Positions 9,222-34,145 of a stretch of DNA of 41,793 nt are shown here, piece by piece. The position numbers were made by a program, and so were the translations under genes. The notes below the pieces were generated by a model that did no database searches, was not told where the DNA came from, and was given only the letters and a program-made list of their open reading frames with translations. The DNA is from Candidatus Poribacteria bacterium (GTDB lineage: Bacteria; Poribacteria; WGA-4E; UBA9662), in NCBI GenBank assembly GCA_002709695.1, contig PAQF01000033.1:13627-55419 (forward strand), written 5' to 3'. Each line of letters begins with the position of its first letter. Position 1 is the stretch's first letter.

Positions 9222-10268
9222 TTATTCTTCTGCGAGTATATCCTTTGCTTCCTTGAATTCTATCTCTGCTTCTGCGATTTTACCTTGTTCTTTATAAACT
9301 AAACCCAGGTTGTGATGGGCTATTGCATTATTGGGGTCGAGCTTTATCACCTTTTCAAACTCAACTTCTGCTTGTTGGTACTTACCTTGATTATAATATA
9401 CTAACCCCAAATTGCCATATATTTCTGCGTTGTTGGGATTAATTTCTACCATTTTTTTAAACTGTTCAATCGCTGATGGATATTCTCCAAGGTTGTAATG
9501 TACCAGTCCTAAGTGATTGTGTGCTATTGCATTATTGGGGTCGAGTTTTATCACCTTTTCAAACTCAACTTCTGCTTGCTGATATTTGCCTTGGCTATAG
9601 CAGACTAGGCCTAGGCCATTATGTGCCTCTATATTATTTGGATTGATTCTTATTACCTTTTCGAATTCGGTAACTGCCTGCGAATACTTGCCTTGATTAT
9701 GGTAGGCTAAGCCTAGATTGTTTTGTGCTTCGATGTTGGTTGGATTGATTCTTATTACCTTTTCGAATTCGGTAACTGCCTGCGAATACTTGCCTTGATT
9801 GTGGTAGGCTAAGCCTAGATTATTATGTACTTCTATGTTATTTGGATTAATTTCAATTACTTTCTCGAACTGTTGAATTGCTTGTTGATACTCACTTTGG
9901 TTATAGTGTACCAGCCCCAAGTTATAATGTGACCATTCCGATTTTGGATTAATTTCAATTACTTTCTCGAACTGTTGAATTGCTTGTTGATACTCACCTT
10001 GGTTATAGTGCACCAGCCCCAAGTTATAATGTGACCATTCCGATTTTGGATTAATTTCTATCACTTTTTCGAACTGTTGAATTGTTTGTTGTTCAATTGA
10101 TGTATTGTTGATTAGTTTCATGTTGTTAGTAGTCTCTGAAACATTAGTACTACACCCGGTGAACCATAGGGCATAGAGTGAGGAAAACTGAATTCCCAGA
10201 ATGGCCATCTGCCCCAGTTGCCTTGTAGTTGCAAAAAACTGCAAGCTCAACCTATTATTTCGTAGCAT
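9222..10268 (-). CDS. Tetratricopeptide-repeat (TPR) lipoprotein
   Basis: This 348-residue protein has a hydrophobic N-terminus ending in a lipobox-like LWFTGC (Cys 39), so it is probably lipid-anchored in the envelope. A short linker is followed by eight consecutive 34-residue TPR units of the pattern NNLGLAYHNQGKYSQAVTEF. TPR superhelices bind protein partners. Units 1 and 2 and units 3 and 4 are almost identical even in DNA, indicating recent internal duplication. The ATG at 10268 has an AGGAC site; an in-frame ATG at 10205 would shorten the pre-lipobox segment and is also possible. It lies 65 bases beyond the spermidine-synthase-like gene and is probably the last gene of that leftward cluster. 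Confidence 0.9.
   Translation of the reverse strand: MLRNNRLSLQFFATTRQLGQMAILGIQFSSLYALWFTGCSTNVSETTNNMKLINNTSIEQQTIQQFEKVIEINPKSEWSHYNLGLVHYNQGEYQQAIQQFEKVIEINPKSEWSHYNLGLVHYNQSEYQQAIQQFEKVIEINPNNIEVHNNLGLAYHNQGKYSQAVTEFEKVIRINPTNIEAQNNLGLAYHNQGKYSQAVTEFEKVIRINPNNIEAHNGLGLVCYSQGKYQQAEVEFEKVIKLDPNNAIAHNHLGLVHYNLGEYPSAIEQFKKMVEINPNNAEIYGNLGLVYYNQGKYQQAEVEFEKVIKLDPNNAIAHHNLGLVYKEQGKIAEAEIEFKEAKDILAEE
9843..10065. repeat. Near-identical 102-base tandem repeat inside the TPR gene
   Basis: Two consecutive TPR-encoding units differ at only a few bases (for example caccttgg against cactttgg and gtgcacc against gtgtacc). The 34-codon unit matches 102 bases. This is recent in-frame tandem duplication rather than an independent element. 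Confidence 0.75.
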
Positions 10269-10333
10269 TATTAATGTCCTAGTCCATAGTTAAGTAGAAG
10301 TTCTTTTAGAATTGTAGTTGTTTTGTTGATGAT

Positions 10334-11986
10334 CTAATAGTAACGCCAATTTTGGTCCTCGTAGTAGAACATAAGGGTCGGTTTAAGAAGCGTATTAATT
10401 TTAGTTTCAAGTTCGTTTACATCTTTACCAAATTGGAACATCGCTTGAATCAAATTGTTGGTCAAGAAGTTAGTTTCAACTGCCAGGCGGATGTTTTTAA
10501 TTTCATTTGTGGTTTTTGATGCCAGATTAAATCCCCAATCGCCCATTGAGGGTATTTCTAAATGGTACGCATAGGTGTGTAGGCCAGCTTTTTCTATTGT
10601 ATGATGTATGCACCAGAAAGCCTCGCGTGAGAAGAATGGCGATGTGCTTTGGGTGACAATCACGCCTTTGGTATTTAGTATGTTCTCAATTAATTTATAG
10701 AATGTGACGCTGTAGAGTTTTGATAATGATTCGTGATTTGGATCAGGTAGATCTATTATAACAACATCAAAATTATGGTCGTGATGTCCCCACTCAACAA
10801 ATTTGTATGCATCTTGATTAATTATGGCAACCTTTTTGTTTAGTAGAGATCCTTGGTTAAGTTGGACAATTTCGGGATTGTTGCTGCAGACTTTGGTAAT
10901 TTCAGGATCTATATCAATTAACACAATTCTTTCTACCTCTGGATATCTGAGAACCTCTCGAGCTGCTAAACCATCACCACCGCCGAGAATTAGTACATTA
11001 GTGTGTTTATCAGCTAAGTTCATCGCAGGATGAACTAGCGCTTCGTGATAACGATATTCGTCAACTGAACTGAATTGAAGATTCCCGTTGATAAACAGCC
11101 TCAGGTCTGTTCTATTGTTAATTATCTCAAGGTTGGGTGGTTTCTTAATGGTATTATTGGCAGGTGATGTCTTCCTCATTTCTCGCTTTGTCAAAACGAT
11201 TTTTTGATATCTCGATTGATTTGACAGTTGAATGTGGTCTCGGTATAGTTTGCGTTCAAGCCAGTGGTCGATATCAGTGGAATATATAGCTGCGATAGTG
11301 AGGCTTCCACTTGTTATTACGGTTGCAAAAGTCAGAAGATGTTTGTCTTCAATACTCTTCCAGTATTGGCATAGCAACAGTCCTGCTACAAAAATATTCA
11401 GCAAGCCAATAATGTATGCGCTTTGAACCAAACCTGTATGTTTTAATAAGATCAGGGGGAAAACAACAGACCCTATTAACGCGCCTATATAGTCAAAGGC
11501 AAGAACGTTAGATAGTGTTATGTGGAGTGAATCGTACTGCCCTATAATTTGTGTGAGAATTGGTATCTCTAGCCCGACGAGCGTACCTATGCTCGTAATC
11601 AGAACGAACATAACTACAAGATAGACCGTAACCGATTCATTAAAGATATATGTGTTGAAGAGAACTGTGGAAGATATACCTCCTATCAAAGCAATAGCGA
11701 TTTCAATCAGTATGAATCGGGCCACTAGGCAACGTGAAAAGTACCTTGATAGATAAGATCCTAAACCCATTGAACTCATAAACAGCCCAATGGTGATCGA
11801 AAACTGGTATACGCTGTTTCCGAGGAGGTAAGATGAGACAGCAGCTATAATGAGTTCATATATAATTGCGCATGTTGCTATTAGGCAAACTGAGAAAAGC
11901 AGGGCAAATACGGCCCATTTGCTAGTTTGGTGTAAATTAACAGGTCCTTGGTGGGAATTTTCGTTGTTTTCTGGTTTTACTGTCAT
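10334..11986 (-). CDS. speE-like: Membrane-anchored polyamine aminopropyltransferase (spermidine synthase)-like protein
   Basis: This 550-residue protein has two parts. The first 240 residues or so are about seven to eight hydrophobic membrane spans. The rest is a class I methyltransferase-like fold matching spermidine synthases, with the nucleotide-binding LILGGGDGLAAREVLRYP near residue 330 and the acidic LIDIDPEI. The canonical catalytic segment (usually DSTDP or similar) appears as VIIDLPDPNHESLSKLYS, keeping two Asp residues but with a different surround. The acceptor may therefore not be putrescine. Its ATG overlaps the upstream stop as ATGA, so it is translationally coupled to the DUF2617-like gene. 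TM-fused versions of this family occur with DUF350/DUF4178/DUF2617 genes in other phyla. Confidence 0.88.
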   Translation of the reverse strand: MTVKPENNENSHQGPVNLHQTSKWAVFALLFSVCLIATCAIIYELIIAAVSSYLLGNSVYQFSITIGLFMSSMGLGSYLSRYFSRCLVARFILIEIAIALIGGISSTVLFNTYIFNESVTVYLVVMFVLITSIGTLVGLEIPILTQIIGQYDSLHITLSNVLAFDYIGALIGSVVFPLILLKHTGLVQSAYIIGLLNIFVAGLLLCQYWKSIEDKHLLTFATVITSGSLTIAAIYSTDIDHWLERKLYRDHIQLSNQSRYQKIVLTKREMRKTSPANNTIKKPPNLEIINNRTDLRLFINGNLQFSSVDEYRYHEALVHPAMNLADKHTNVLILGGGDGLAAREVLRYPEVERIVLIDIDPEITKVCSNNPEIVQLNQGSLLNKKVAIINQDAYKFVEWGHHDHNFDVVIIDLPDPNHESLSKLYSVTFYKLIENILNTKGVIVTQSTSPFFSREAFWCIHHTIEKAGLHTYAYHLEIPSMGDWGFNLASKTTNEIKNIRLAVETNFLTNNLIQAMFQFGKDVNELETKINTLLKPTLMFYYEDQNWRYY

Positions 11987-12543
11987 GAATGTTCGGAGTT
12001 CACTTTGATTTTTGAATGGGTAACAACGGCAGTAAGTTCTTCGACAAAGGAATGAAAAGTTTCTATCTCCAATTGGTTATCATTGGCTTTGAGGACATTG
12101 ATTATAGTTACTGGTTCAGTAGTGGAAGTTTCTGTACTAGGGAAACTATGCTTTAAATGAAACAGCGCCTTGTTATGGTCTGGTTCGGAATTCTTGGAAA
12201 AAGACTTTTCATTTGGATACTGTATCATTTTGAGACTTGTTCGGTACATAAACTTTTCGCCAACATGGAACTCGCAATGGTGATTCTCCAAGCTACGGAT
12301 CAATTCGATCTGTCCTGTTGACGGTAGTACTTTTGCGTCAGCAGTAATTACTTCTGCTAACTCTGTTTGTTCGTTTTTAATGTTAACAACATGACTGCTG
12401 CCGATAATCCAGAAGTTTGCTCTATACCTGTTTCGTACAATGGTGAGCTTTTTAAAGATGTGGAACAGATTTGGTTCTAAGCAACGTTTATAAAGACCAA
12501 ACTGAAGGTTCTTGATGTCTTGTTTAATGTAGATGTGCTTCAA
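11983..12543 (-). CDS. DUF2617-like protein
   Basis: This 186-residue soluble protein has no signal peptide. Family-like landmarks appear in order: IIGSSHVVNI (residues 46-55), LAEVITAD, a C-x-F segment (HHCEFHVG), LKHSFPS, PVTIINVL, and a late ETFHSFVEELTAVVTHS matching the W-TWH-YP pattern of DUF2617. The identification rests on this ordered pattern and on position, since DUF2617 genes commonly adjoin spermidine-synthase-like genes. The biochemical role is unknown. It overlaps the SpeE-like gene by 4 bases, implying coexpression and perhaps a physical partnership. Start: ATG at 12543 with a weak AGGACA-type site. Confidence 0.6.
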   Translation of the reverse strand: MKHIYIKQDIKNLQFGLYKRCLEPNLFHIFKKLTIVRNRYRANFWIIGSSHVVNIKNEQTELAEVITADAKVLPSTGQIELIRSLENHHCEFHVGEKFMYRTSLKMIQYPNEKSFSKNSEPDHNKALFHLKHSFPSTETSTTEPVTIINVLKANDNQLEIETFHSFVEELTAVVTHSKIKVNSEHS

Positions 12544-12820
12544 TGTCTTTTATGTCCTAATTTGTATTGAAGTATGAAAGGTTTTGGATAGTTAGGGTGG
12601 AAAGGATTTATCGTTATATAAATGGGGATGATAAAGATAAGAAAAGGAGAAGATACTCCTTACTTGGCGATCCTTTGCGTAGAATGTTTGGGTAAAACTT
12701 ATGGCATAGGTTTAAAAAAGGGGGGTGGTGTATTCAAATCAAATTAGTTCCTTTGATTTGAACCAAGTATGTTTTTCTTAATCTGTTCAACTTGGTGGAT
12801 GAATTGTGTTAAGATTACAA
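12544..12820. other. 277-base gap inside the SpeE/DUF350 cluster, structured but non-coding
   Basis: No coding frame is evident. It contains the 11-base inverted repeat described separately, a second arm pair (ACCAAG at 12762-12767 and CTTGGT at 12791-12796), an AAGGAG/CTCCTT pair at 12644-12661, and a run that reads CCCCCCTTTTTT on the transcribed strand. It could attenuate or divide transcription between the two halves of the cluster. Confidence 0.45.
12733..12762 (-). terminator. Perfect 11-base inverted repeat, putative attenuator or terminator
   Basis: TTCAAATCAAA (12733-12743) and TTTGATTTGAA (12752-12762) pair perfectly around an 8-base loop. On the leftward transcript the hairpin is followed about 12 bases later by a C-run and then a T-run. 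The stem is AT-rich, so it may be a partial terminator or a protein-binding palindrome. Confidence 0.4.
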
Positions 12821-13141
12821 TTAAAGTATTGCTGCTGCTACAATCAGTCCTAAAGCGATCATAATACCAGCAACGATAACCCCCGCAGCAGTGTTGTTCT
12901 TGTCCTCTATTTCTGCATTGAGGTTGAAGGGGGTAATCAAATCAAAAATTTTGAATCCGATCATAAGTACTATAATGCCTAAGATGCTGTAGATTGCAGA
13001 TGCAACTAATCCTTCTGATAAATTCGCCCAGATGCCATTGTCTATTGATTGTGTTTGAAGGGTATTTTCTTGGGCTATTGCAATAATGCTTAACATGCAC
13101 GACATCACGACAAAACTGTACTTTGCTGTTTTGGTTTTCAT
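12821..13141 (-). CDS. DUF350-family membrane protein
   Basis: This 106-residue protein has an N-terminal signal-like hydrophobic stretch (residues 8-24) and then two further hydrophobic helices joined by the short polar linker FDLITPFNLNAEIEDKNN, which is the hallmark region of the DUF350/YjfL family. The last helix (GVIVAGIMIALGLIVAAAIL) is glycine/alanine-rich and ends the protein. DUF350 proteins are small inner-membrane proteins with no defined biochemistry that recur beside DUF4178, SpeE-like and PspA-type genes. The AGGAG site 5-6 bases before the ATG is good. The gene lies 39 bases after the DUF4178-like gene. Confidence 0.82.
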   Translation of the reverse strand: MKTKTAKYSFVVMSCMLSIIAIAQENTLQTQSIDNGIWANLSEGLVASAIYSILGIIVLMIGFKIFDLITPFNLNAEIEDKNNTAAGVIVAGIMIALGLIVAAAIL

Positions 13142-13180
13142 ATTACTTCTCCTATGTAAAGATTGCCCAGTTTTCTGAGA

Positions 13181-13762
13181 TTACGAGTTGTCAGACGTAC
13201 TATAAATCTCGATGTCTGATTCCCGAATATATCTACCAATAGATGCTTCATAAGTGTTTTCATTCCAGTATTGGATATTAATCGTGTGTTCTTGCTCCTC
13301 GTCTGCAAAATCCCAGTAGTAAAATGACTTGCCATTTGGTCGACAATTCTCATGTAATTGGTTTTCTCCTGAGTCAATTACGTGATATACAACATTGTCA
13401 AAATCAAACTCCCCTGTGTGCTGGGTATCAAAAATTTCTAGATCTGTAGATGTCAATTTCAATTTCTCAAAACTAATTTCCTTTGTGATGGTTGCGATTA
13501 GGCCTCCATTTTGTTGCCAGTTTAGCCAGAATGTTATTCCCCCATCACCAGTTAGTTTTAGCTCAAACGATTCTTCTTTTCCTCCGGTATATCTGTTTTT
13601 TTGCTCAACTAGATATTCGTCTCCCTTTACTAGGATAACTCCACTGGGTTGTACATTGTTTAAATATGATGTTGACAAATCGGGTTTATCCTTTTTTCTT
13701 AAGAGAAGCCAAGCCCATCCTGCTATGGCGGAGATAACAATGAGCAAGACAAAGATCTTCAC
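13181..13762 (-). CDS. DUF4178-like membrane-anchored protein
   Basis: This 193-residue protein has one N-terminal transmembrane helix (residues 2-20) followed by RKK, so the rest is probably cytoplasmic. The soluble part is beta-rich and carries landmarks of DUF4178: LVKGDEYLVEQKNRYTGG, ELKLTGDGGITFWLNWQQ, FDFDNVVYHVIDSG and YYWDFADEEQEHTINIQYW. DUF4178 domains occur with DUF350 and SpeE-like genes, and their function is unknown. The start is GTG at 13762. It sits between the lipoprotein gene (64 bases upstream) and the DUF350 gene and is probably in the same transcript. Confidence 0.75.
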   Translation of the reverse strand: MKIFVLLIVISAIAGWAWLLLRKKDKPDLSTSYLNNVQPSGVILVKGDEYLVEQKNRYTGGKEESFELKLTGDGGITFWLNWQQNGGLIATITKEISFEKLKLTSTDLEIFDTQHTGEFDFDNVVYHVIDSGENQLHENCRPNGKSFYYWDFADEEQEHTINIQYWNENTYEASIGRYIRESDIEIYSTSDNS

Positions 13763-13826
13763 GGTTCCATTCCCTTTCTTTGGTTAGGACGAGTCAAACA
13801 TGATTAAAACGAGGAGTAGTTAAATA

Positions 13827-14846
13827 TTATTTCCCAAATCCTCGGCTCCCTCCCCGAAAAGAACTGGCGGATCGGCTTCGATTCAGACCTTTTGATGAAG
13901 AAGATCTACTACTTCGTGACGAAGTGGTATTTCTGCCAAACCCACCGCTGCGTGATGTAGATGTTACCTGCCGAGATGCCATAACACGCTTGGACTTCAT
14001 GTTTTGAATGGATTTTGGAGCCTGCTGAGTACGGTTTTTGGCTTTGCTACTTCTGCTTATATTATTTCCTGCTGTTTTAGAAGGCATTGCTCTTCTATAG
14101 CGAGTTGTGGTGCGTGTTACTGTGCGTGTTCTCACAGGAGCATGCCATCCACCATAATAACTCCCATACCAACCTCCGTACCATCCAGGACCATACCAAC
14201 CATAGGGTCTGAAAAGTATGTCTCGTATGATCATATATCGAAAATACGATGTCATCCAGCTATGTTCATTAGCGTAATACGAACTTTTGTGGTGGAGAGC
14301 TCTGCCTTCATATACGTGTTGGTTGGATTCGGCATTAATCGTCATTGAGGAGCTATTTTGCTCATAAGTTAATGATACTGCTACCAGTTCTATCCCATCT
14401 TTTGCTATTTGGTGCCAATTGGCATTTTGATCTGGGTCTATGGTGTGTTGGCTTGGATCTGGTACGCGAAGTGAGTATATGGCTGACTGTTGTTGCACCG
14501 ATTCGGGGACAACGAGTAAGGGATCTCGGTTTCCGTCTTCGTTGAGATCAACTTGATAATTAACCTCTGGGTCGTCCATTATCTTTTGGCTCAGGCTCTG
14601 CACAATTTTTTGCTGGAATTTTTTTGATTCAGGTTTTTCCTGAGGCGCTGCTTCTCTCAGAACCTCTTTCATGACATCCGGAAGGATGGCTGGATTTAGT
14701 TTGTTGGTCAGATCAATCTTAGTAGAAACTGTTGCTCTGGCAACACCAACTGGATAATCTTGGGAACCCTTGTCACATCCGAAAAAGAACACCCCAGTAG
14801 CGGCTACTGAACAGATTGTTAATACTATTAGGAAAAGCCTTTTCAT
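13827..14846 (-). CDS. Lipoprotein with Tyr/Trp/Gly segment and RS-rich tail ending in GFGK
   Basis: This 339-residue protein has a clear lipobox (VFFFGC, Cys 24), so it is lipid-anchored. A soluble region holds the phrase QVDLNEDGNRDPLLVVPES. It leads to a hydrophobic/aromatic stretch (WMTSYFRYMIIRDILFRPYG), a Gly/Trp/Tyr-rich block of repeated WYG units near residue 220, and a basic, Arg/Ser/Thr-rich low-complexity tail that ends SFRGGSRGFGK. I do not recognise a catalytic domain. Actinobacterial clusters of this type contain DUF4247 proteins with comparable glycine-rich ends, so this may be a distant counterpart; that is inference. A 20-base gap separates it from the upstream acidic-protein gene. 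Confidence 0.72.
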   Translation of the reverse strand: MKRLFLIVLTICSVAATGVFFFGCDKGSQDYPVGVARATVSTKIDLTNKLNPAILPDVMKEVLREAAPQEKPESKKFQQKIVQSLSQKIMDDPEVNYQVDLNEDGNRDPLLVVPESVQQQSAIYSLRVPDPSQHTIDPDQNANWHQIAKDGIELVAVSLTYEQNSSSMTINAESNQHVYEGRALHHKSSYYANEHSWMTSYFRYMIIRDILFRPYGWYGPGWYGGWYGSYYGGWHAPVRTRTVTRTTTRYRRAMPSKTAGNNISRSSKAKNRTQQAPKSIQNMKSKRVMASRQVTSTSRSGGFGRNTTSSRSSRSSSSKGLNRSRSASSFRGGSRGFGK

Positions 14847-14866
14847 TTTGTCTATGTCCTAGTTTC

Positions 14867-15742
14867 CTAAAATGCCAGCCAAACAGCGCCTATGAACGCT
14901 GTTGTTAAAAATCCACCACCGATAACTGCATATGGGTCGTAGTAGAACGGATCGTATCCCCATCCGTTCCAGGTTATTTCTTCCTCATATTCTTCAATTA
15001 CATCTTGTTGGGTTTTCAATGAATCTGGAGGTGACAAGTATCCGTTGTTATCGCCATTGATATCATCAGTCCATCGTTTTTGGGTTTCTTCGATTCCCTG
15101 CTCAATAATGTCGAGTATCACAGTCTCGCCTAATATCTTTTCACCAGTTTCGTTGTTAATATAGCTTAGATCTTCGGGCCAGAGATTTGTATTGCTGATT
15201 TCATTAACTTCTTCCCAAAAATCGCTGGAAACGAGGTCGAACTGCCAACATTTTTCCATCCCAATTCGGTTTTCAGATAAGAGTGACATAAAAGCGATAG
15301 TGAAAGGGTTGAGGTCTGTCTTACGACCTTCCTTTTCTGCTAATCTTTGTTTGTAGATACAAACTGCTATTCTCAAGTCTTCCCATATGGGTTGTCCTTC
15401 TTCATCTACTTCATCCCAGTCAGCTTCGTCTTCAGCAAAAGTGCCTTCAAGCAAGTCGACGCCGGCGAATATGTCGTATGTTATTATAAAGTCCCACCAG
15501 CGGGAAATGAAATTATGATAAATCAATTCTCCTTTGCGCGTTGGTGAATAATATTCAGCACCTTCCTTTATTGTCCAGTATTCGTCGTAGTATTCACTGA
15601 TGAGATCTTCTAGAAAGACATAGTCACCTTCCATTAAGGCAGGTATTTGTTCATTTCTTTCTATCATTCGATATAGTACGAAACGAGAGGACAATTTTTT
15701 CTGTAATTCTACTCCCATTTCCAAAGCTTTTTTGGGCACCAT
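14867..15742 (-). CDS. Acidic protein of unknown family with a C-terminal hydrophobic segment
   Basis: I do not recognise this 291-residue protein. It is mostly alpha-helical and strongly acidic, with clusters of Glu/Asp and aromatic residues (EDLISEYYDEYW, EEVNEISNTNLWPEDL). It ends in a Gly/Ala-rich hydrophobic segment (YAVIGGGFLTTAFIGAVWLAF) that could insert into a membrane as a tail anchor. No signal peptide is present. An AAGGA site is 4 bases before the ATG at 15742, and promoter-like boxes lie about 80-110 bases upstream, so it is probably the first gene of the SpeE/DUF350 cluster. Its place at the head of the operon suggests a cluster-specific partner. Confidence 0.7.
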   Translation of the reverse strand: MVPKKALEMGVELQKKLSSRFVLYRMIERNEQIPALMEGDYVFLEDLISEYYDEYWTIKEGAEYYSPTRKGELIYHNFISRWWDFIITYDIFAGVDLLEGTFAEDEADWDEVDEEGQPIWEDLRIAVCIYKQRLAEKEGRKTDLNPFTIAFMSLLSENRIGMEKCWQFDLVSSDFWEEVNEISNTNLWPEDLSYINNETGEKILGETVILDIIEQGIEETQKRWTDDINGDNNGYLSPPDSLKTQQDVIEEYEEEITWNGWGYDPFYYDPYAVIGGGFLTTAFIGAVWLAF

Positions 15743-16150: not shown

Positions 16151-17053
16151 GTGAATGAAAGAAGGGTCATATGGTTTCTTTCATCGGAAGGTATTTTGGA
16201 CCAAAGTCGCAACCTAATTCCAGATACTCCATTTGGAAACTCGGCTATAATTGCTGGAGTGGTTGGGCAAGATTGTTTGGCTGTTATTGTCGATAGTTAT
16301 GATGTATGGAGGTTTGCTTCAGAGGTGTGGAAAAAATTGCTCTGCTAATGTTGTCTTGAATTGTCTTTGTTGGACGACTGGCAATCGTTTACTTGTAGGC
16401 ACTGCAGGTGTTCGTTTGCGCGTAGGTCGTCGATGGAAACCTGCACTTTATTGCTAGTTTTGACTCAGTTGCGGAACGTGAATTTTGAAAGACTCCATGA
16501 GGGGTTCCTGATGTGCGTTCATTAGTGGTTGCTACGGATGGGACGATATACGCTAATATTCATGTTGGTTGGCTTGCTCGTTTCAGAGATGCAGAGGGGG
16601 AACTTGGCGAGTCTTGCAAGAAGGTTTGGAAATGAATGTTCATCAAGTGGTTACTTACTTATCTAATCCAAGTGCAGTTATTGCTGCTACCGCTAGTGGT
16701 TTTTATCTGAGTGATGACCATGGGTGTACATTTACTTGCCAAAGTAATGGTATTGTTTGCCGTTATCAAAGGGCTTGTGCTTGTTTTTTTGATGCCGATA
16801 TTTATCTTGTTTCTACTTCTAAGGGGCCCCATGGTTGTGTAGAAGCACAACTGTACCGAGGCGAAAATGCTGGAAGGGATTGGGAATTGGTTGGGGGCTT
16901 ACCCAAAAAAATAGATGGGAACATTTTATTGGAGGAGCCTGTGCACTCGTGATCATTGAGGATACTTTTCTATATGAAACTAGTGATTGGAGTATGACAT
17001 GGAATAAAATAGGAGGAGGTTACCCCAAGTTTTCTGGTGCCCTCGTGTTATAG
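16151..17053 (+). pseudogene. Decayed BNR-repeat/beta-propeller (sialidase-like) protein gene
   Basis: One protein can be followed through several frames. The start MNERRVIWFLSSEG and PFGNSAIIAGVVGQ run to a stop at 16346-16348. The reading moves to another frame near LLVGTAGVRLRVGRRW, then to GVPDVRSLVVATDGTIYANI (from 16501), then, after a shift in the G-run near 16600, to GGTWRVLQEGLEMNVHQVV and FYLSDDHGCTFT. Near 16925 it shifts again to LVIIEDTFLYETSDWSMTWN, stopping at 17053. In-frame readthrough would add DDGWLSREF. The phrases FYLSDDHGCTFT and SDWSMTWNKI are BNR/Asp-box-like. At least four frame breaks plus stops make this a pseudogene rather than one sequencing error. Confidence 0.75.
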
Positions 17054-27282: not shown

Positions 27283-29901
27283 CTATCTTTTTCGCCTTTT
27301 TGGGCGATTACTTCTGGCAGATCTTGAAGTTCTTCGTCTCGGTATTGCTTGTTTTCGGTTGTGTTGCTGAGTTGGTATTCTGCTCCGTTTCTCTTGTCTG
27401 GATTCTGTGTTAAGCTGAGTTTTAAAGATCCATTCACAGATTTCCTCTTCTATGCGTTGATGCATTACCTCAAAAATTTCGAGTGCTTCACTTTTGAAAA
27501 CGACAATTGGATCTTTCCCGCCTTGACCACGATGATGAATCCCTTCTTCGAGATAGTCTATATTGTACAGGTGGTCCTTCCAGTGACTGTCGATTCGATC
27601 GAGAAGTATCATACGTTCCAATTCACGCATGATCTCAGCTCCCATTTCTTCTTCGCGGAGTTTGTATATACTGTGTAAAGATTCAATTATGTTACTCCGA
27701 ATTTGATTTGGTTCTTGTTGTTCAATAGGTGGAGACCATTTGGATAAGTCAATTGGAAATGTTCGCGTTAGCCAGGTGGCAAAAACCTCAGCACCACTTT
27801 CTTCTTCAGGGTCAGGATTAATTAGATAAAAATCAAGATTATCGTCAACGAGATTTTCGATCATCTCCCATATTTTATTTTTTAATTCATCTCCATGGAG
27901 TACCTCATTACGGAGTGAGTAAATTGTTTGACGCTGTATTGTCATTACATCGTCGAATTTTAGTAGCTGTTTTCGGATTGCGAAATGTTTTTCCTCAACA
28001 CGTTTCTGCGCTTTTTCGATAGCTTTAGTAATCCATTTGTGTTCTATTGGAGTTTCATCATCCATACCGACTTTATCCATCATCCCTTGCAGACGATCTT
28101 GCCCAAATTTACGCATCAAGTCATCTTCGAGGGATAAGTAAAATCGGGAAGAACCGGGATCACCTTGCCGGCCAGACCGGCCGCGAAGCTGGTTATCGAT
28201 TCTACGTGATTCATGCCGTTCGGTGCCTATGATGTGTAATCCACCGGCTACTAGAATCTTTTCGCGATTTTCGGTACAAACAGAGCTTGCTTCCTGAAAT
28301 GCTGATGCCCACTCCTCGGATTCTGGGTCTGTCGTATCAGGGTTCAACCGCTTTTTTTGCAGGAGTTGTTTGGTAATGATATCGGGATTGCCTCCGAGTA
28401 AGATATCAACGCCACGGCCTGCCATATTTGTTGCAATTGTTATTGCCCCAGGCATTCCTGCTTGAGCGATGATAGTTGCTTCTCGGGCATGCGCTTTAGC
28501 ATTTAATACTTGGTGACCCAAATGCCGGTTTTTTACCTTCAGCATTTTGCTCAGTTTTTCAGAGTTCTCAATCGAAATCGTTCCGACCAAAACGGGGCGT
28601 TTTTGTTCGTGTTTTTCAAGGATGTCGTCAATTACTGCATTGAACTTCGCTTTTTCGCTTTTGTAAATTTGATCGGCAAGATCAAGGCGGGCTAGAGGGC
28701 GATTCGTTGGCACCACAACAACATCCAAACTATAAATTTGGGCGAATTCAAGTGCTTCGGTTGCGGCTGTACCAGTCATGCCCGATAGCTTATCGTACAT
28801 TCGAAAATAGTTTTGATAGGAGATTCTTGCGCCTGTTTGGCTTTCCTGTGCAATCCGAACGTTTTCCTTGGCTTCAAGTGCCTGGTGTAGCCCTTCGCTA
28901 TAGCGCCTTCCCTCCTGCATCCTTCCGGTAAATTCGTCGACAATGATCACCTCGCCATCTTTTACTACATAATCGATGTCGCGTTTGTAAAGAGCATGAG
29001 CAGTTAATGCTTGATTAATGTGATGTATGGTATCCATATTGTCAGAACTGTAAAGGTCGTCTATTCCCAATAATTTCTGAACTTCATCCACCCCAGGGTC
29101 AGTTAGCATGACTGTTCCTCGTTTACTACCTTTTTCGTCAATCTCGTAGTGGTCATTTAGTTTAAGCCTGGCAATGGCACGACGGATCTTTTGGTATAGT
29201 TCGACTGGTTCACCATGGGGTTCGGCAATAATTAGTGGTACACGGGCTTCATCAATTAGTACACTATCTACTTCGTCTATAATTGCAAAATTATGACCAT
29301 GTTGCACTTTGCCTTCCAAATAGCGTGCCTTGTTGTCCCACAAGTAATCAAAGCCGAATTCGCTATGTACTCCATATGTAATATCAGATTTATAGCCGAG
29401 TCGTTTCTCTTCATGTGACATGCCGCTAAGTGTAAGACCAACGGATAGACCAAGGAAACTATATATTTGCCCCATCCATTCTGCATCACGCTCCGCCAGA
29501 TAATCATTGACGGTGGCAAGGTGAACCCCTTTTCCTTTTAAGGCATTTAAGTAAACAGCTAAGGTGGATGTTAGGGTTTTTCCTTCACCAGTTTTCATTT
29601 CGGCGATGTTGCCTTGATGAAGAGCTATTCCTCCGATAAGTTGGACATCAAAATGTCTTTGGTTTAGAGTGCGAACTGCTGCTTCTCGGACAACAGCGAA
29701 TGCTTCAGGTAGGAGATCATCTAATGATACACCATTGTCTAATTGTTGTCGGAAATTGGGAGTTTTCGATTTTAGCTGAGCGTCTGAAAGCTTTTGAATG
29801 GTGGGTTCAAATTGGTTGATTTGTTCGACCAATGGTTGAAAACTCTTAAAATCCCTATCTTCCTTACTGCCAAAAACTTTTGTTAGTACTTTTTGAAACA
29901 C
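27283..29901 (-). CDS. secA: Preprotein translocase ATPase SecA
   Basis: This 872-residue motor drives proteins through SecYEG. Walker A is MKTGEGKTLTS at 102-112 and the DEAD-like Walker B is IDEVDSVLIDEA. The Q-motif region near LIGGIALHQGN, helicase domain 2 (TIATNMAGRGVDILLGGNP) and the wing/scaffold region with SHWKDHLYNIDYLEEGI are all normal. The start is GTG at 29901 with an AAGGAAA site. The C-terminus ends RSARSNRPKRRKR and lacks the usual cysteine/histidine zinc motif that binds SecB, so it has a basic tail instead. It sits between the membrane-protein gene and the Trm112-like gene. Confidence 0.96.
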   Translation of the reverse strand: MFQKVLTKVFGSKEDRDFKSFQPLVEQINQFEPTIQKLSDAQLKSKTPNFRQQLDNGVSLDDLLPEAFAVVREAAVRTLNQRHFDVQLIGGIALHQGNIAEMKTGEGKTLTSTLAVYLNALKGKGVHLATVNDYLAERDAEWMGQIYSFLGLSVGLTLSGMSHEEKRLGYKSDITYGVHSEFGFDYLWDNKARYLEGKVQHGHNFAIIDEVDSVLIDEARVPLIIAEPHGEPVELYQKIRRAIARLKLNDHYEIDEKGSKRGTVMLTDPGVDEVQKLLGIDDLYSSDNMDTIHHINQALTAHALYKRDIDYVVKDGEVIIVDEFTGRMQEGRRYSEGLHQALEAKENVRIAQESQTGARISYQNYFRMYDKLSGMTGTAATEALEFAQIYSLDVVVVPTNRPLARLDLADQIYKSEKAKFNAVIDDILEKHEQKRPVLVGTISIENSEKLSKMLKVKNRHLGHQVLNAKAHAREATIIAQAGMPGAITIATNMAGRGVDILLGGNPDIITKQLLQKKRLNPDTTDPESEEWASAFQEASSVCTENREKILVAGGLHIIGTERHESRRIDNQLRGRSGRQGDPGSSRFYLSLEDDLMRKFGQDRLQGMMDKVGMDDETPIEHKWITKAIEKAQKRVEEKHFAIRKQLLKFDDVMTIQRQTIYSLRNEVLHGDELKNKIWEMIENLVDDNLDFYLINPDPEEESGAEVFATWLTRTFPIDLSKWSPPIEQQEPNQIRSNIIESLHSIYKLREEEMGAEIMRELERMILLDRIDSHWKDHLYNIDYLEEGIHHRGQGGKDPIVVFKSEALEIFEVMHQRIEEEICEWIFKTQLNTESRQEKRSRIPTQQHNRKQAIPRRRTSRSARSNRPKRRKR

Positions 29902-31378: not shown

Positions 31379-31666
31379 ATGGTAAGTCCAAAATTGACTA
31401 CATTGCAGATTGAGAATGAAATTCTAAACCTGTCGAATTGGACAGTTCAAAATGACAAGCTTCATAAACAGTACCATTTTGGTTCTTTTATTGAGGCGTT
31501 TGGTTTTATGGCAAGTGTTGCACTAGTTGCAGAATCAATGAACCACCATCCCGAGTGGACTAATGTCTATAATCGCGTTACTATAGATCTAACTACCCAT
31601 GATTCTGGTGGGATTAGTGCGCTTGATTTTGAACTTGCTAAGAGAGCTGACGAAATTGCCGGTTAA
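31379..31666 (+). CDS. phhB: 4a-hydroxytetrahydrobiopterin dehydratase (pterin carbinolamine dehydratase)
   Basis: This 95-residue enzyme dehydrates 4a-hydroxy-tetrahydropterin, recycling the pterin cofactor. The active-site block [21 protein letters not shown] contains the conserved His 56, His 57, Pro 58 and His 74, as in the PCD/DCoH family. The length is normal. The start follows an AAGGGG-type site. No aromatic amino acid hydroxylase gene is nearby in the window. The following acyltransferase frame overlaps or closely follows its stop, so the two are probably cotranscribed. Confidence 0.93.
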
Positions 31667-31694
31667 TCGTTGGCTTTCTTTGAAAAAAGATTTA

Positions 31695-32564
31695 ATGGTA
31701 GTCACAGCTTTTCAATGTTTTTCACTAGTTTTCCAGTTGTTACCGAGGAGAATAGTTTTAATCCTTGGGAAGTGGATTGGTAATTTTTCGTATATTGTGT
31801 TTAGGCGGCGTCGGCAAATAGCGATGACAAATTTGAACATCGCTTTCGCTGGGAAAATCTCGGATCAAGAGATACAGCGAATATGTCGTAAGACCTTTCA
31901 GGGGCTTGGTAAAAATTTGGCTGAATTTTTGCAATTTCCTCGGTTAACAAATGAGAATATTTGGAATTTAGTTAATGTTGAGGGTAAGGAAAATTTAGAT
32001 GCTGCTCTCAGTCAAGGGAAAGGAGCAATAATATTTGCTCCACATTTTGGTAACTGGGAACTTACTGGTCTCGTCACTGGTGTACTAATACCCAACCGGA
32101 TAAAAGCTATCGTTTTTGAACTTAGGAATGAGCGTCTTAACCAATTAGTTTGGAAATATCGACAGCATCTTAGTGCTGAGCTTATTCCTAAACGGAAAGC
32201 TATTCGAAGGACTATACTTGCACTTAAACAGAATTGTGCAATCGGCTTTTTCGCTGATCAAGATGCGGGGGGGAGTGGTGTATTTGTTGACTTCTTTGGT
32301 AAGCCTGCATCTGCAGTTCGTAGTCCCATGATACTTGCTCTCAAGACTGGAGCACCTATATTATTCTCAGTTTGTATTCGTCAGCCTAACGACCAACACT
32401 TAGTTAAAATTTATGAACCGTTTGATATCAAAATTTCGGATAGTTTTGAATATGACGTACAGTACAATACTGAGCGTTTGTTGAAAATTCTTGAAAATGA
32501 AATTCGATGCTATCCGGACCAATGGCTGTGGTTGCATAATCGTTGGAAGACGCAACCTTCATAG
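31695..32564 (+). CDS. LpxL/HtrB-type lysophospholipid acyltransferase
   Basis: This protein of about 289 residues transfers an acyl chain to a lipid A-type precursor, or to a related glycolipid, at the inner membrane. After an N-terminal hydrophobic anchor (FQCFSLVFQLLPRRIVLILG) it carries the catalytic HFGNWE at H117-E122, the FFADQD motif and PMILALKTGAPI, typical of the LpxL family. The open frame extends back to 31599 and overlaps the previous gene. I place the start at the ATG 31695; a TTG at 31680 (giving LKKDLMVV) is an alternative. Neither has a strong ribosome site. Its presence supports a diderm envelope. Confidence 0.88.
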   Translation: MVVTAFQCFSLVFQLLPRRIVLILGKWIGNFSYIVFRRRRQIAMTNLNIAFAGKISDQEIQRICRKTFQGLGKNLAEFLQFPRLTNENIWNLVNVEGKENLDAALSQGKGAIIFAPHFGNWELTGLVTGVLIPNRIKAIVFELRNERLNQLVWKYRQHLSAELIPKRKAIRRTILALKQNCAIGFFADQDAGGSGVFVDFFGKPASAVRSPMILALKTGAPILFSVCIRQPNDQHLVKIYEPFDIKISDSFEYDVQYNTERLLKILENEIRCYPDQWLWLHNRWKTQPS

Positions 32565-32639
32565 AAATTGTCAAGTATCTGGTTCGGATGTTATAATGTG
32601 AGTAGAGTTTCGCAATTTTTGGAGTTATAAAGGGGCGTC

Positions 32640-34145
32640 ATGGTCCGATGCAGTAGGAAATACACTTTTTCGATTGCTGCTTTGACTGTAATTGTTGTAG
32701 TTGTAGTTCTCCTCTTCAACACTATTGGCAAAAATGCACTAAGTGGTCGTGAAGAACGCATAACGACCATGATGCTAATTAACAAACTGAATGAGGCAAT
32801 AGCAAAATCTGAAACTTTTTATTACAAAGATGTAGATCGCGAGAAAGTTTATGAGGGTGCTATCAAAGGAGCGCTTGCAGCACTTGGTGATCCTTACTCT
32901 TTCTATCAATCTCCAGAGTCCTTTCAACGTGAACGTGAAGATCTCATTGCGGCTAAGTTTGGTGGGTTAGGAATCCGGATTTATGTGGATAAGGGGTTGG
33001 TGAAAATTTTGTCTGTTTTGCCTTACACTCCGGCCATGAAAGCAGGTTTGCAAGCGGGTGATTATATCACCAAGATTGAGGGAGAGGCAATTAGTATTGG
33101 AATTACGAGTGGAAAAACACTGAATGATGTTGTTAGTGTTCTCAGGGGAAGAGTTGGTACCAAAGTCAAAATTGCGATCCGTCGTCGCGGAAGCTCTGAA
33201 CCTTTCGAGGTTACTTTAACACGTGGGGAAATCAAGACTGATAGTGTTGAAAAGACTATGATTAACGATGCGATCGCCTATATACGTATTACCAACTTTA
33301 CAGGGCGAACTAGTGAGGAATTCCACCAAGCTATGACAGATCTTTTTAATTCGGATGAGATGAGACCCAAAGCCCTAATTTTAGACCTGCGCAATAACCC
33401 TGGTGGTCTTCTTGATTCTGCTTATTATGTTTCAGATGCTCTTATTTCTGAGGGAATGATTGTTTCAACTCGAGGACGTCATCCGCAATCCAATAAAGAA
33501 TATAAATCTAGTGCAAAAGTCTTGTGTCCGGAAGATATAGAGCTTGTGGTGTTGATAAACGAATACAGCGCTAGTGGGTCGGAAATAGTGGCAGGGGCAA
33601 TTAGGGATCATGTACGTGGTGTTCTTCTAGGGAAAAAAACCTTTGGTAAGGGCGTTGTTCAACAGCGTATCCCTCTAAAACATGGAGGGGCAGTGTCATT
33701 AACTATTTCGACTTATTATACTCCGAATGGCACTTCGATTAATGAGAAAGGGGTTGAACCGCAAGTTGATGTTGACACGACAAAGCTTGAAATCGTTGAT
33801 GCTGAGATGCGACAGAAAATGCGTAATGGTCGTTATGTGAATGATTTTGTGGAGAAGTGGATTGAAGAGGAAGAAAAGAGCACAGGAAAGATTCCTCAAG
33901 ATTTTTCAAAACTTGAGACTAATCTCAGTCAGTTATTTGAAACACTAAAACAAAATAGCATATCGTTGAGTGAAGATTTAGTAAAGTTGGATGCTAAAAG
34001 AGTTTTTAATAATAATGTTGGAATATATCAATTAATTGATCTTTATCATGACAACCAACTTGTGAAAGCGATTAGTATTATTAAAAATGGCGAGGTTCAG
34101 AAAATAATCTCGTCAAAACACTCAGATTCCATAGCCGATCTGTAG
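32640..34145 (+). CDS. ctpA: S41-family C-terminal processing peptidase (CtpA)
   Basis: This 501-residue periplasmic protease is anchored by an N-terminal helix (residues 12-28). It has a PDZ domain (FGGLGIRIYVDKGLVKILSV, then KAGLQAGDYI) and an S41 catalytic domain with LDLRNNPGGLLDSAYY, the Ser in EYSASGSEIVAGA (Ser 312 or 314), and Lys 337 in GKKTFGKGVVQ. C-terminal of the catalytic domain a charged helical extension (residues about 390-500) is longer than in standard CtpA. It cleaves C-terminal tails of envelope proteins. The gene lies 75 bases after the acyltransferase gene. Confidence 0.94.
   Translation: MVRCSRKYTFSIAALTVIVVVVVLLFNTIGKNALSGREERITTMMLINKLNEAIAKSETFYYKDVDREKVYEGAIKGALAALGDPYSFYQSPESFQREREDLIAAKFGGLGIRIYVDKGLVKILSVLPYTPAMKAGLQAGDYITKIEGEAISIGITSGKTLNDVVSVLRGRVGTKVKIAIRRRGSSEPFEVTLTRGEIKTDSVEKTMINDAIAYIRITNFTGRTSEEFHQAMTDLFNSDEMRPKALILDLRNNPGGLLDSAYYVSDALISEGMIVSTRGRHPQSNKEYKSSAKVLCPEDIELVVLINEYSASGSEIVAGAIRDHVRGVLLGKKTFGKGVVQQRIPLKHGGAVSLTISTYYTPNGTSINEKGVEPQVDVDTTKLEIVDAEMRQKMRNGRYVNDFVEKWIEEEEKSTGKIPQDFSKLETNLSQLFETLKQNSISLSEDLVKLDAKRVFNNNVGIYQLIDLYHDNQLVKAISIIKNGEVQKIISSKHSDSIADL

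Follow-up and report, generated by a model that had tools for sequence, protein, structure and literature searches.

What does a spermidine-synthase-like enzyme act upon when it is built into the membrane and encoded beside a lipid-anchored protein? The question is raised by seven genes of a Candidatus Poribacteria genome (5.2 Mb, 96% complete), found in the window analyzed here, i.e., the whole stretch of 41,793 nucleotides taken from contig PAQF01000033.1. As a first-pass annotation of this DNA had described, the seven open reading frames (ORFs) lie head to tail and leftward, on the minus strand, between positions 9222 and 15742 (Table 1). Profile searches against Pfam and NCBIfam placed four of the products above the curated cut-offs, namely, SpeE-TM (a SpeE-like enzyme with transmembrane [TM] segments), DUF2617, DUF350 and DUF4178, the same families that had been named. 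The reading that we put forward, with a probability of about 40%, is that the anchored lipoprotein of the cluster would be the dedicated acceptor of SpeE-TM, its C-terminal lysine being aminopropylated with a donor that is supplied via SpeD or via a DUF2617-dependent route.

The gene neighborhood had been recognized at first pass as one known from other phyla, and it does match a class that Ravi et al. 2024 (PMC11237479) described within the PspA network: operons with a 7TM-fused SpeE, DUF350, DUF4178 and a lipoprotein (Ctha_1186 domain), of which some variants have DUF2617 and DUF4247 and lack PspA, and others have an S-adenosylmethionine (AdoMet) decarboxylase and a polyamine oxidase. Those authors proposed that membrane dynamics are tied to the polyamine level or that other substrates are aminopropylated. 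By its gene content, the window cluster is a PspA-less member of this SpeE-7TM/DUF350/DUF4178 class with lineage-specific additions. It has the SpeE with an N-terminal 7TM domain, DUF350, DUF4178 and an anchored lipoprotein that may fill the slot of the Ctha_1186 or DUF4247 protein; DUF2617 stands next to SpeE-TM, as in the actinobacterial-type variant; and in having no CesT/Tir-PspA dyad, it resembles the described DUF2617 variants. Neither the seven cluster proteins nor the neighboring proteins scanned gave a PspA match, and no ATP-grasp match was found among the scanned window proteins (the rest of the genome was not searched for ATP-grasp), in line with the absences already remarked upon. 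A lipoprotein without a Pfam family, an oxidase encoded in trans, an added head protein and the lack of SpeD distinguish the window cluster from the operons described. The main text of PMC11237479 contains no mention that we could find of a terminal lysine or of a periplasm-facing enzyme.

An anchored tail that ends in lysine

The lipoprotein of the window starts with a signal peptide (...FFFGC), continues as a conserved ectodomain and ends in a tail rich in arginine/serine and glycine (RS/G); it matched no Pfam or NCBIfam family above cut-off. It had been taken for an unusual extra, a view that its distribution contradicts. The gene was found in 12 of the 85 genomes of the phylum, two of them with weak, disrupted matches and the other ten with 50 to 83% identity to the window protein, across families and classes. 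In nine aligned Poribacterial lipoproteins, the RGG...GK end is invariant, and the RS tail preceding it has indels. The same eight-residue end is found in Actinomycetota, Bacillota and others. This C-terminal GG[GS]xxxGK, with its fixed spacing, is carried on dissimilar scaffolds: the Poribacterial lipoprotein, DUF4247 proteins (in Actinomycetota and Frackibacter), fusions of DUF4178, a TM segment and an ectodomain (in Clostridia), and small anchored proteins. The window lipoprotein itself, which shares the tail end with the DUF4247 proteins, had no DUF4247 match in Pfam. The small tail proteins (46 to 66 residues, a single TM segment) are encoded between DUF4178 and DUF350 in Bacteroidota, Acidobacteriota, Leptospiraceae and others and end in YHK, FHK, SHK or GK, and at mycobacterial-type loci, the tail ends are TK or AK.

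These ends are concentrated around SpeE. Of the same-strand ORFs in the neighborhood of SpeE, 35 of 1535 have an end of the form G[GS].{1,5}GK, versus 0 of 2955 others. A membrane segment together with a GK or HK end was counted in 56 of 231 cases within the 3.5 kb preceding SpeE and in 5 of 1073 elsewhere. Counted by locus, a GK/HK-ending anchored ORF was found at 69 of the 78 loci with DUF4178 or DUF350, at 2 of the 21 without them and on the opposite strand at none (0/99). When the anchored ORF between DUF4178 and DUF350 was picked blindly, by position, its last residue was lysine at 51 of 67 loci, compared to 7.2% of ORFs in general. This positional rule replaced a first blind one (lysine in 26/70), which often selected DUF4178 itself. 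On the sequence evidence, each DUF4178-bearing SpeE-TM operon, in many phyla, encodes one anchored protein whose flexible tail has lysine as its last residue, mostly as GGGxxxGK or YHK, and the Poribacterial RS/G lipoprotein appears, by its tail end, to be the local form of this class-wide anchored lipoprotein slot. A literature search combining C-terminal lysine with aminopropyltransferase found no report.

The actinobacterial operon DUF4178-DUF2617-DUF4247-DUF350-SpeE, which we take to be of the Rv2597-Rv2601 type, has the same families, with DUF2617 in the place of SpeD as in the window, and its DUF4247 proteins have a G-rich tail with a C-terminal lysine like that of the Poribacterial lipoprotein. 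It differs in gene order, in the presence of DUF4247 and in having no head protein. A more distant likeness is found in Escherichia coli, where yjfIJKLMC and ygiBC combine an anchored RS/G-tailed protein with a polyamine-related enzyme (and, in yjf, DUF350). There, an ATP-grasp ligase takes the place of SpeE-TM, and the tails of YjfM and YgiB (DUF1190) end in GG, not in lysine. YjfC and YgiC, with genes beside those of the RS/G-tailed DUF1190 proteins, are annotated as peptide-spermidine ligases, an activity for which Pederick et al. 2023 is cited in a passage of PMC10948618. They may represent a parallel solution, by which ready-made spermidine would be ligated to the C-terminal carboxylate. 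Assignment of the window lipoprotein itself to DUF1190/YjfM was rejected, as the match scored 15.9 bits (cut-off, 22) and was confined to the composition-biased RS-rich tail.

Orientation of the enzyme and origin of the donor

SpeE-TM has kept its catalytic motifs (Y313-H-E, GGGDG at 335-339 and DLPDP at 412-416), and the nearest solved structures are aminopropyltransferases, e.g., 1uir. With the soluble SpeE that works with SpeD it has the catalytic domain and motifs in common, to which it adds a membrane domain and a predicted external location of catalysis, in a genome with no SpeD. Seven hydrophobic segments were found in 101 SpeE-TM sequences, and the mean number of lysines plus arginines per protein was 2.5, 2.6, 3.1 and 3.4 in the loops of one side and 0.17, 0.13 and 0.89 in those of the other. 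Given this positive-inside pattern and the odd number of TM segments, the predicted side is the inner one for the N terminus and the outer one for the catalytic domain. The tail carriers have a single TM segment in 68 of 69 cases, with a charge distribution that favors an external tail in 47, opposes it in 7 and is equal in 14. The catalytic domain and the lysine tail are predicted, then, on the same, outer side of the membrane, to which the Tat-like (twin-arginine translocation) signal of the amine oxidase found in relatives also points.

A gene for the AdoMet decarboxylase SpeD (PF02675) is missing in the window genome and in eight other Poribacteria (G001, G003, G006, G063, G065, G066, G067 and G070). 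In G002, the one exception among the Poribacterial DUF2617 genomes tested, it occurs only on a contig of phage-derived appearance (L069, G002:C48, 7725-8069), and this homologue may be an altered-substrate decarboxylase of the kind known from phages. In another Poribacterial family, SpeE-TM has no DUF2617 in its vicinity, and SpeD is encoded, usually within a few kilobases. In 80 SpeE-TM loci from many phyla, where DUF4178 (59/80) and DUF350 (56/80) are common and SpeD and an amine oxidase are often flanking genes too, we found SpeD in 41, DUF2617 in 2 and both in none; 22 of 28 tested genomes with neither family at the locus had SpeD elsewhere, and the DUF2617-bearing “Ca. Frackibacter” genome had none. 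Among 299 Actinomycetota, 35 had SpeE-TM above cut-off, 32 of these with DUF2617, and all 32 genomes with a clear DUF2617 had SpeE-TM (one weak match, in G409, was excluded). SpeD was missing from 30 of the 32 and present in 2, and it was present in all three that had SpeE-TM and no DUF2617. Where actinobacterial genomes had two copies (three cases), the copy numbers of DUF2617 and SpeE-TM were equal. There are exceptions to the exclusion: neither family turned up in G063 (79% complete), and six genomes from other phyla lack SpeD without having DUF2617 at the locus. All these distribution counts ignore the kinship of the genomes, and the Poribacterial ones refer to DUF2617 as seen at the loci, not by a genome-wide search.

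Because SpeD is absent where DUF2617 is present and DUF2617 is tied to SpeE, we infer from the distribution that DUF2617 replaces the function of SpeD, or the need for it. An alignment of 27 DUF2617 members has S50, H51, E64 and H164 among its invariant residues, and the AlphaFold model is all-beta with a predicted local distance difference test (pLDDT) score of 87.8. We discarded the possibility of a divergent SpeD, raised by a look-alike motif (WIIGSSHV versus VIAESHIS), on account of an hhalign probability of 0 and of the all-beta model; Foldseek against the PDB gave no usable match (TM-scores of ≤0.24). Some actinobacterial genomes contain two SpeE-TM/DUF2617 pairs, and at L243-L246, two-gene DUF2617-SpeE-TM units stand apart from the full operon, with DUF4178, DUF350 and the lysine tail not detected.

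The proposed modification and its rivals

In the mechanism that we propose, the lipoprotein, once exported, would stay tethered to the membrane through its N terminus, and the flexible RS/G tail would bring the C-terminal lysine into the SpeE-TM active site on the outer side. The enzyme would then move an aminopropyl group onto the lysine side chain, and a polyamine would be built on the end of the tail. The donor would be decarboxylated AdoMet, for which most lineages would use SpeD and the window genome a DUF2617-dependent route. Donor movement or gating of the complex may fall to DUF350 and the 7-TM domain, and sensing or regulation from the cytoplasmic side to DUF4178. A flavin amine oxidase with Tat export, whose gene lies elsewhere in the window genome, may trim or reverse the mark. 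Lysine is favored as the acceptor because it is obligate and terminal, because the tail is flexible, anchored and on the same side as the aminopropyltransferase, and because it resembles putrescine: the lysine side chain presents the same four-carbon amine. The family assignments, the linkage, the C-terminal lysine and the SpeD/DUF2617 exclusion come from sequence analysis. The topology is a prediction, and every chemical step of the model is one that we infer. An envelope-located system adding an aminopropyl-type group had been suggested at first pass, with the modified target presented to lipid-anchored partners. The location holds, and the type of modification seems probable; the last step is better reversed, as the anchored protein itself looks like the target.

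Several points weigh against this. An extracytoplasmic enzyme needs decarboxylated AdoMet outside the cytoplasm, and we are aware of no transporter that would bring it there. The role of the terminal lysine could instead be in binding or localization. At the other 16 loci of the blind test, the K-ending ORF of the operon was found by inspection that was not blind, and the tail counts include related genomes and small ORFs and have no correction for phylogeny. DUF2617 has no detectable relation to SpeD by hhalign and no known fold match. Finally, some SpeE-TM genes have neither DUF4178 nor DUF350 nor a tail with them, and the enzyme can, therefore, act on a different acceptor.

This last observation also favors an explanation that we regard as rather unlikely, in which SpeE-TM is an ordinary membrane-held polyamine synthase, making free spermidine or a variant for export, and the lysine tail is an unmodified module for binding or assembly (with DUF350, SpeE or an anionic surface). 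The SpeE-TM motifs are those of spermidine synthases, and SpeD adjoins the gene in the 41 loci mentioned above; left unexplained are a last residue that is invariant on dissimilar scaffolds and the predicted external catalytic domain. We give less credit to modification of a membrane lipid or envelope amine, e.g., to aminopropyl-phosphatidylethanolamine, with the lipoprotein, DUF350 and DUF4178 sensing or responding. This would suit a set with every part at the membrane and is near both the proposal of PMC11237479 and the first-pass view, but the set has no lipid-binding or lipid-modifying partner, and an obligate terminal lysine would have no explanation. Least probable of all seems the use of AdoMet itself by SpeE-TM in the DUF2617 lineages, for the transfer of a 3-amino-3-carboxypropyl or methyl group, where DUF2617 would work on either donor or product. 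In its favor, PF02675 is lacking in “Ca. Frackibacter”, in 30 of 32 actinobacterial genomes and in the nine Poribacterial genomes that have operon genes. Against it, the SpeE-TM enzymes of the DUF2617 and SpeD groups have common catalytic motifs and 47 to 48% identity in Poribacteria, and the position of DUF2617, where SpeD would be, agrees at least equally well with donor supply.

The cluster within Poribacteria

The complete seven-gene order is also found in a second species of the same genus (L032). In relatives from other families, the TPR (tetratricopeptide repeat) gene is unattached and the head gene often so, and in G003 and G006, the set is found in two places, a head-lipoprotein-DUF4178 part and a DUF2617-SpeE part. 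The order at L083, L084, L086 and L087, as in the more distant G065, G066, G067 and G070, is lipoprotein-DUF4178-DUF350-oxidase-DUF2617-SpeE-TM, the oxidase being a Tat-type flavin amine oxidase (PF01593). In the window genome, G001, G003 and G006, this slot is empty, and a related oxidase-like gene is located elsewhere in the genome; in G002, such a gene adjoins that of the head protein. No amine-oxidase remnant was found in the DUF350-DUF2617 gap of the window. The core of the cluster is, hence, the lipoprotein, DUF4178, DUF350, DUF2617 and SpeE, with the oxidase in trans. Since the 277-base gap contains a terminator-like site (12661-12644), the seven genes are not necessarily one transcript. 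The start of SpeE overlaps the stop of DUF2617 (ATGA, 11983-11986).

Table 1. Features of the cluster, in window coordinates
Feature	Positions	Strand	Remarks
Head protein	14867..15742	-	291 aa, acidic; partner restricted to lineage
Anchored lipoprotein, RS/G-rich tail	13827..14846	-	339 residues; proposed acceptor substrate
C-terminal decapeptide FRGGSRGFGK, Lys last	13830..13859	-	Proposed modification site
DUF4178 protein, N-terminal membrane segment, domain predicted cytoplasmic	13181..13762	-	Pfam 51.7 bits, cut-off 25
DUF350 (YjfL family) membrane protein	12821..13141	-	Pfam 58.7 bits, cut-off 26
DUF350/DUF2617 gap; Tat amine-oxidase slot in relatives	12544..12820	.	277 bases
DUF2617 protein, all-beta model	11983..12543	-	Pfam 31.5 bits, cut-off 22.3
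DUF2617 codons 49-51 (Ser-Ser-His)	12391..12399	-	Alignment of 27 DUF2617 proteins
SpeE-TM, spermidine-synthase-like membrane enzyme	10334..11986	-	Spermine_synth 123.8 bits; PRK03612 591.8 bits, cut-off 472
SpeE-TM 7-TM N-terminal domain, predicted N-in	11273..11986	-	Hydropathy and K+R per loop, 101 sequences
SpeE-TM catalytic domain, predicted extracytoplasmic	10337..11272	-	Odd TM number and positive-inside pattern
TPR-repeat lipoprotein	9222..10268	-	348 residues; Pfam TPR

Of the two remaining extra partners, the head protein was upheld as such, being found in only 6 of the 85 genomes of the phylum and adjoining the lipoprotein gene in G000, G001, G003 and G006. It has 60 aspartates plus glutamates versus 23 lysines plus arginines, its sole hydrophobic segment is at the extreme C terminus, and it had no Pfam or NCBIfam match; its AlphaFold model, mostly helical, had a pLDDT of only 57, too poor for a fold search. 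In G063 (L068, 6866-8873), a homologue of the head protein with 33 to 34% identity again precedes a lipoprotein, the RS-rich end of which (..RRSSSRRSGRGR) lacks the terminal lysine. The TPR gene, among the Poribacterial loci examined besides the window, was beside SpeE only in L032; its lipoprotein is probably outside the system, a neighbor conserved in the genus only. It contains near-identical repeat units (NPKSEWSHYNLGLVHYNQ.EYQQAIQQFEKVIEI), which suggests a recent repeat expansion.

Some loci depart from the common arrangement. In G070 (L087, 4698-5255), DUF2617 is broken by one in-frame stop, due to an assembly error or decay. In G063 (L117, 1908-2620), the DUF2617 slot between the oxidase and SpeE-TM is taken by a membrane protein that contains a haem-type CxxCH motif (DCSHCHGK). 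Poribacterial family f4 (L035-L040) has SpeE-TM, SpeD and a Tat amine oxidase beside lipoate-ligase-like and FGE-sulfatase-type genes, without DUF350, DUF4178 or the lysine tail. In the window itself, rightward ORF fragments upstream of the cluster (16151-17053) resemble a decayed gene, the longest piece having no Pfam match, and genes for SecA, a lipid A acyltransferase-like protein and an S41 protease are found near a polysaccharide cluster (27283-29901 and 31599-34145).

The conserved terminal lysine, the absence of an AdoMet decarboxylase and the Tat-type amine oxidase of relatives, with its homologue in the window genome, go beyond the first-pass annotation. As far as the protein sequences indicate, three elements are new for the class: the rule of the terminal lysine, a catalytic domain predicted to face outward and the exclusion between SpeD and DUF2617. 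SpeE-TM operons are found in many phyla, including mycobacteria-like and other actinobacteria, and we found no reported substrate for them. The fixed C-terminal lysine offers a concrete acceptor candidate by which the function of the operon becomes testable, and for DUF2617, a domain of unknown function, its swap with SpeD suggests an equally concrete and testable biochemical role. Possible, if still doubtful, is the wider view that SpeE-TM operons represent a widespread, unrecognized extracytoplasmic protein modification, with an outward enzyme that builds a polyamine on an obligate tail lysine, DUF2617 as a non-homologous replacement of SpeD and the Tat oxidase as an eraser or trimmer. If this holds, proteins at the cell surface would be subject to a new type of post-translational modification, a counterpart of the peptide-spermidine ligation reported for YgiC and YjfC of E. 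coli.

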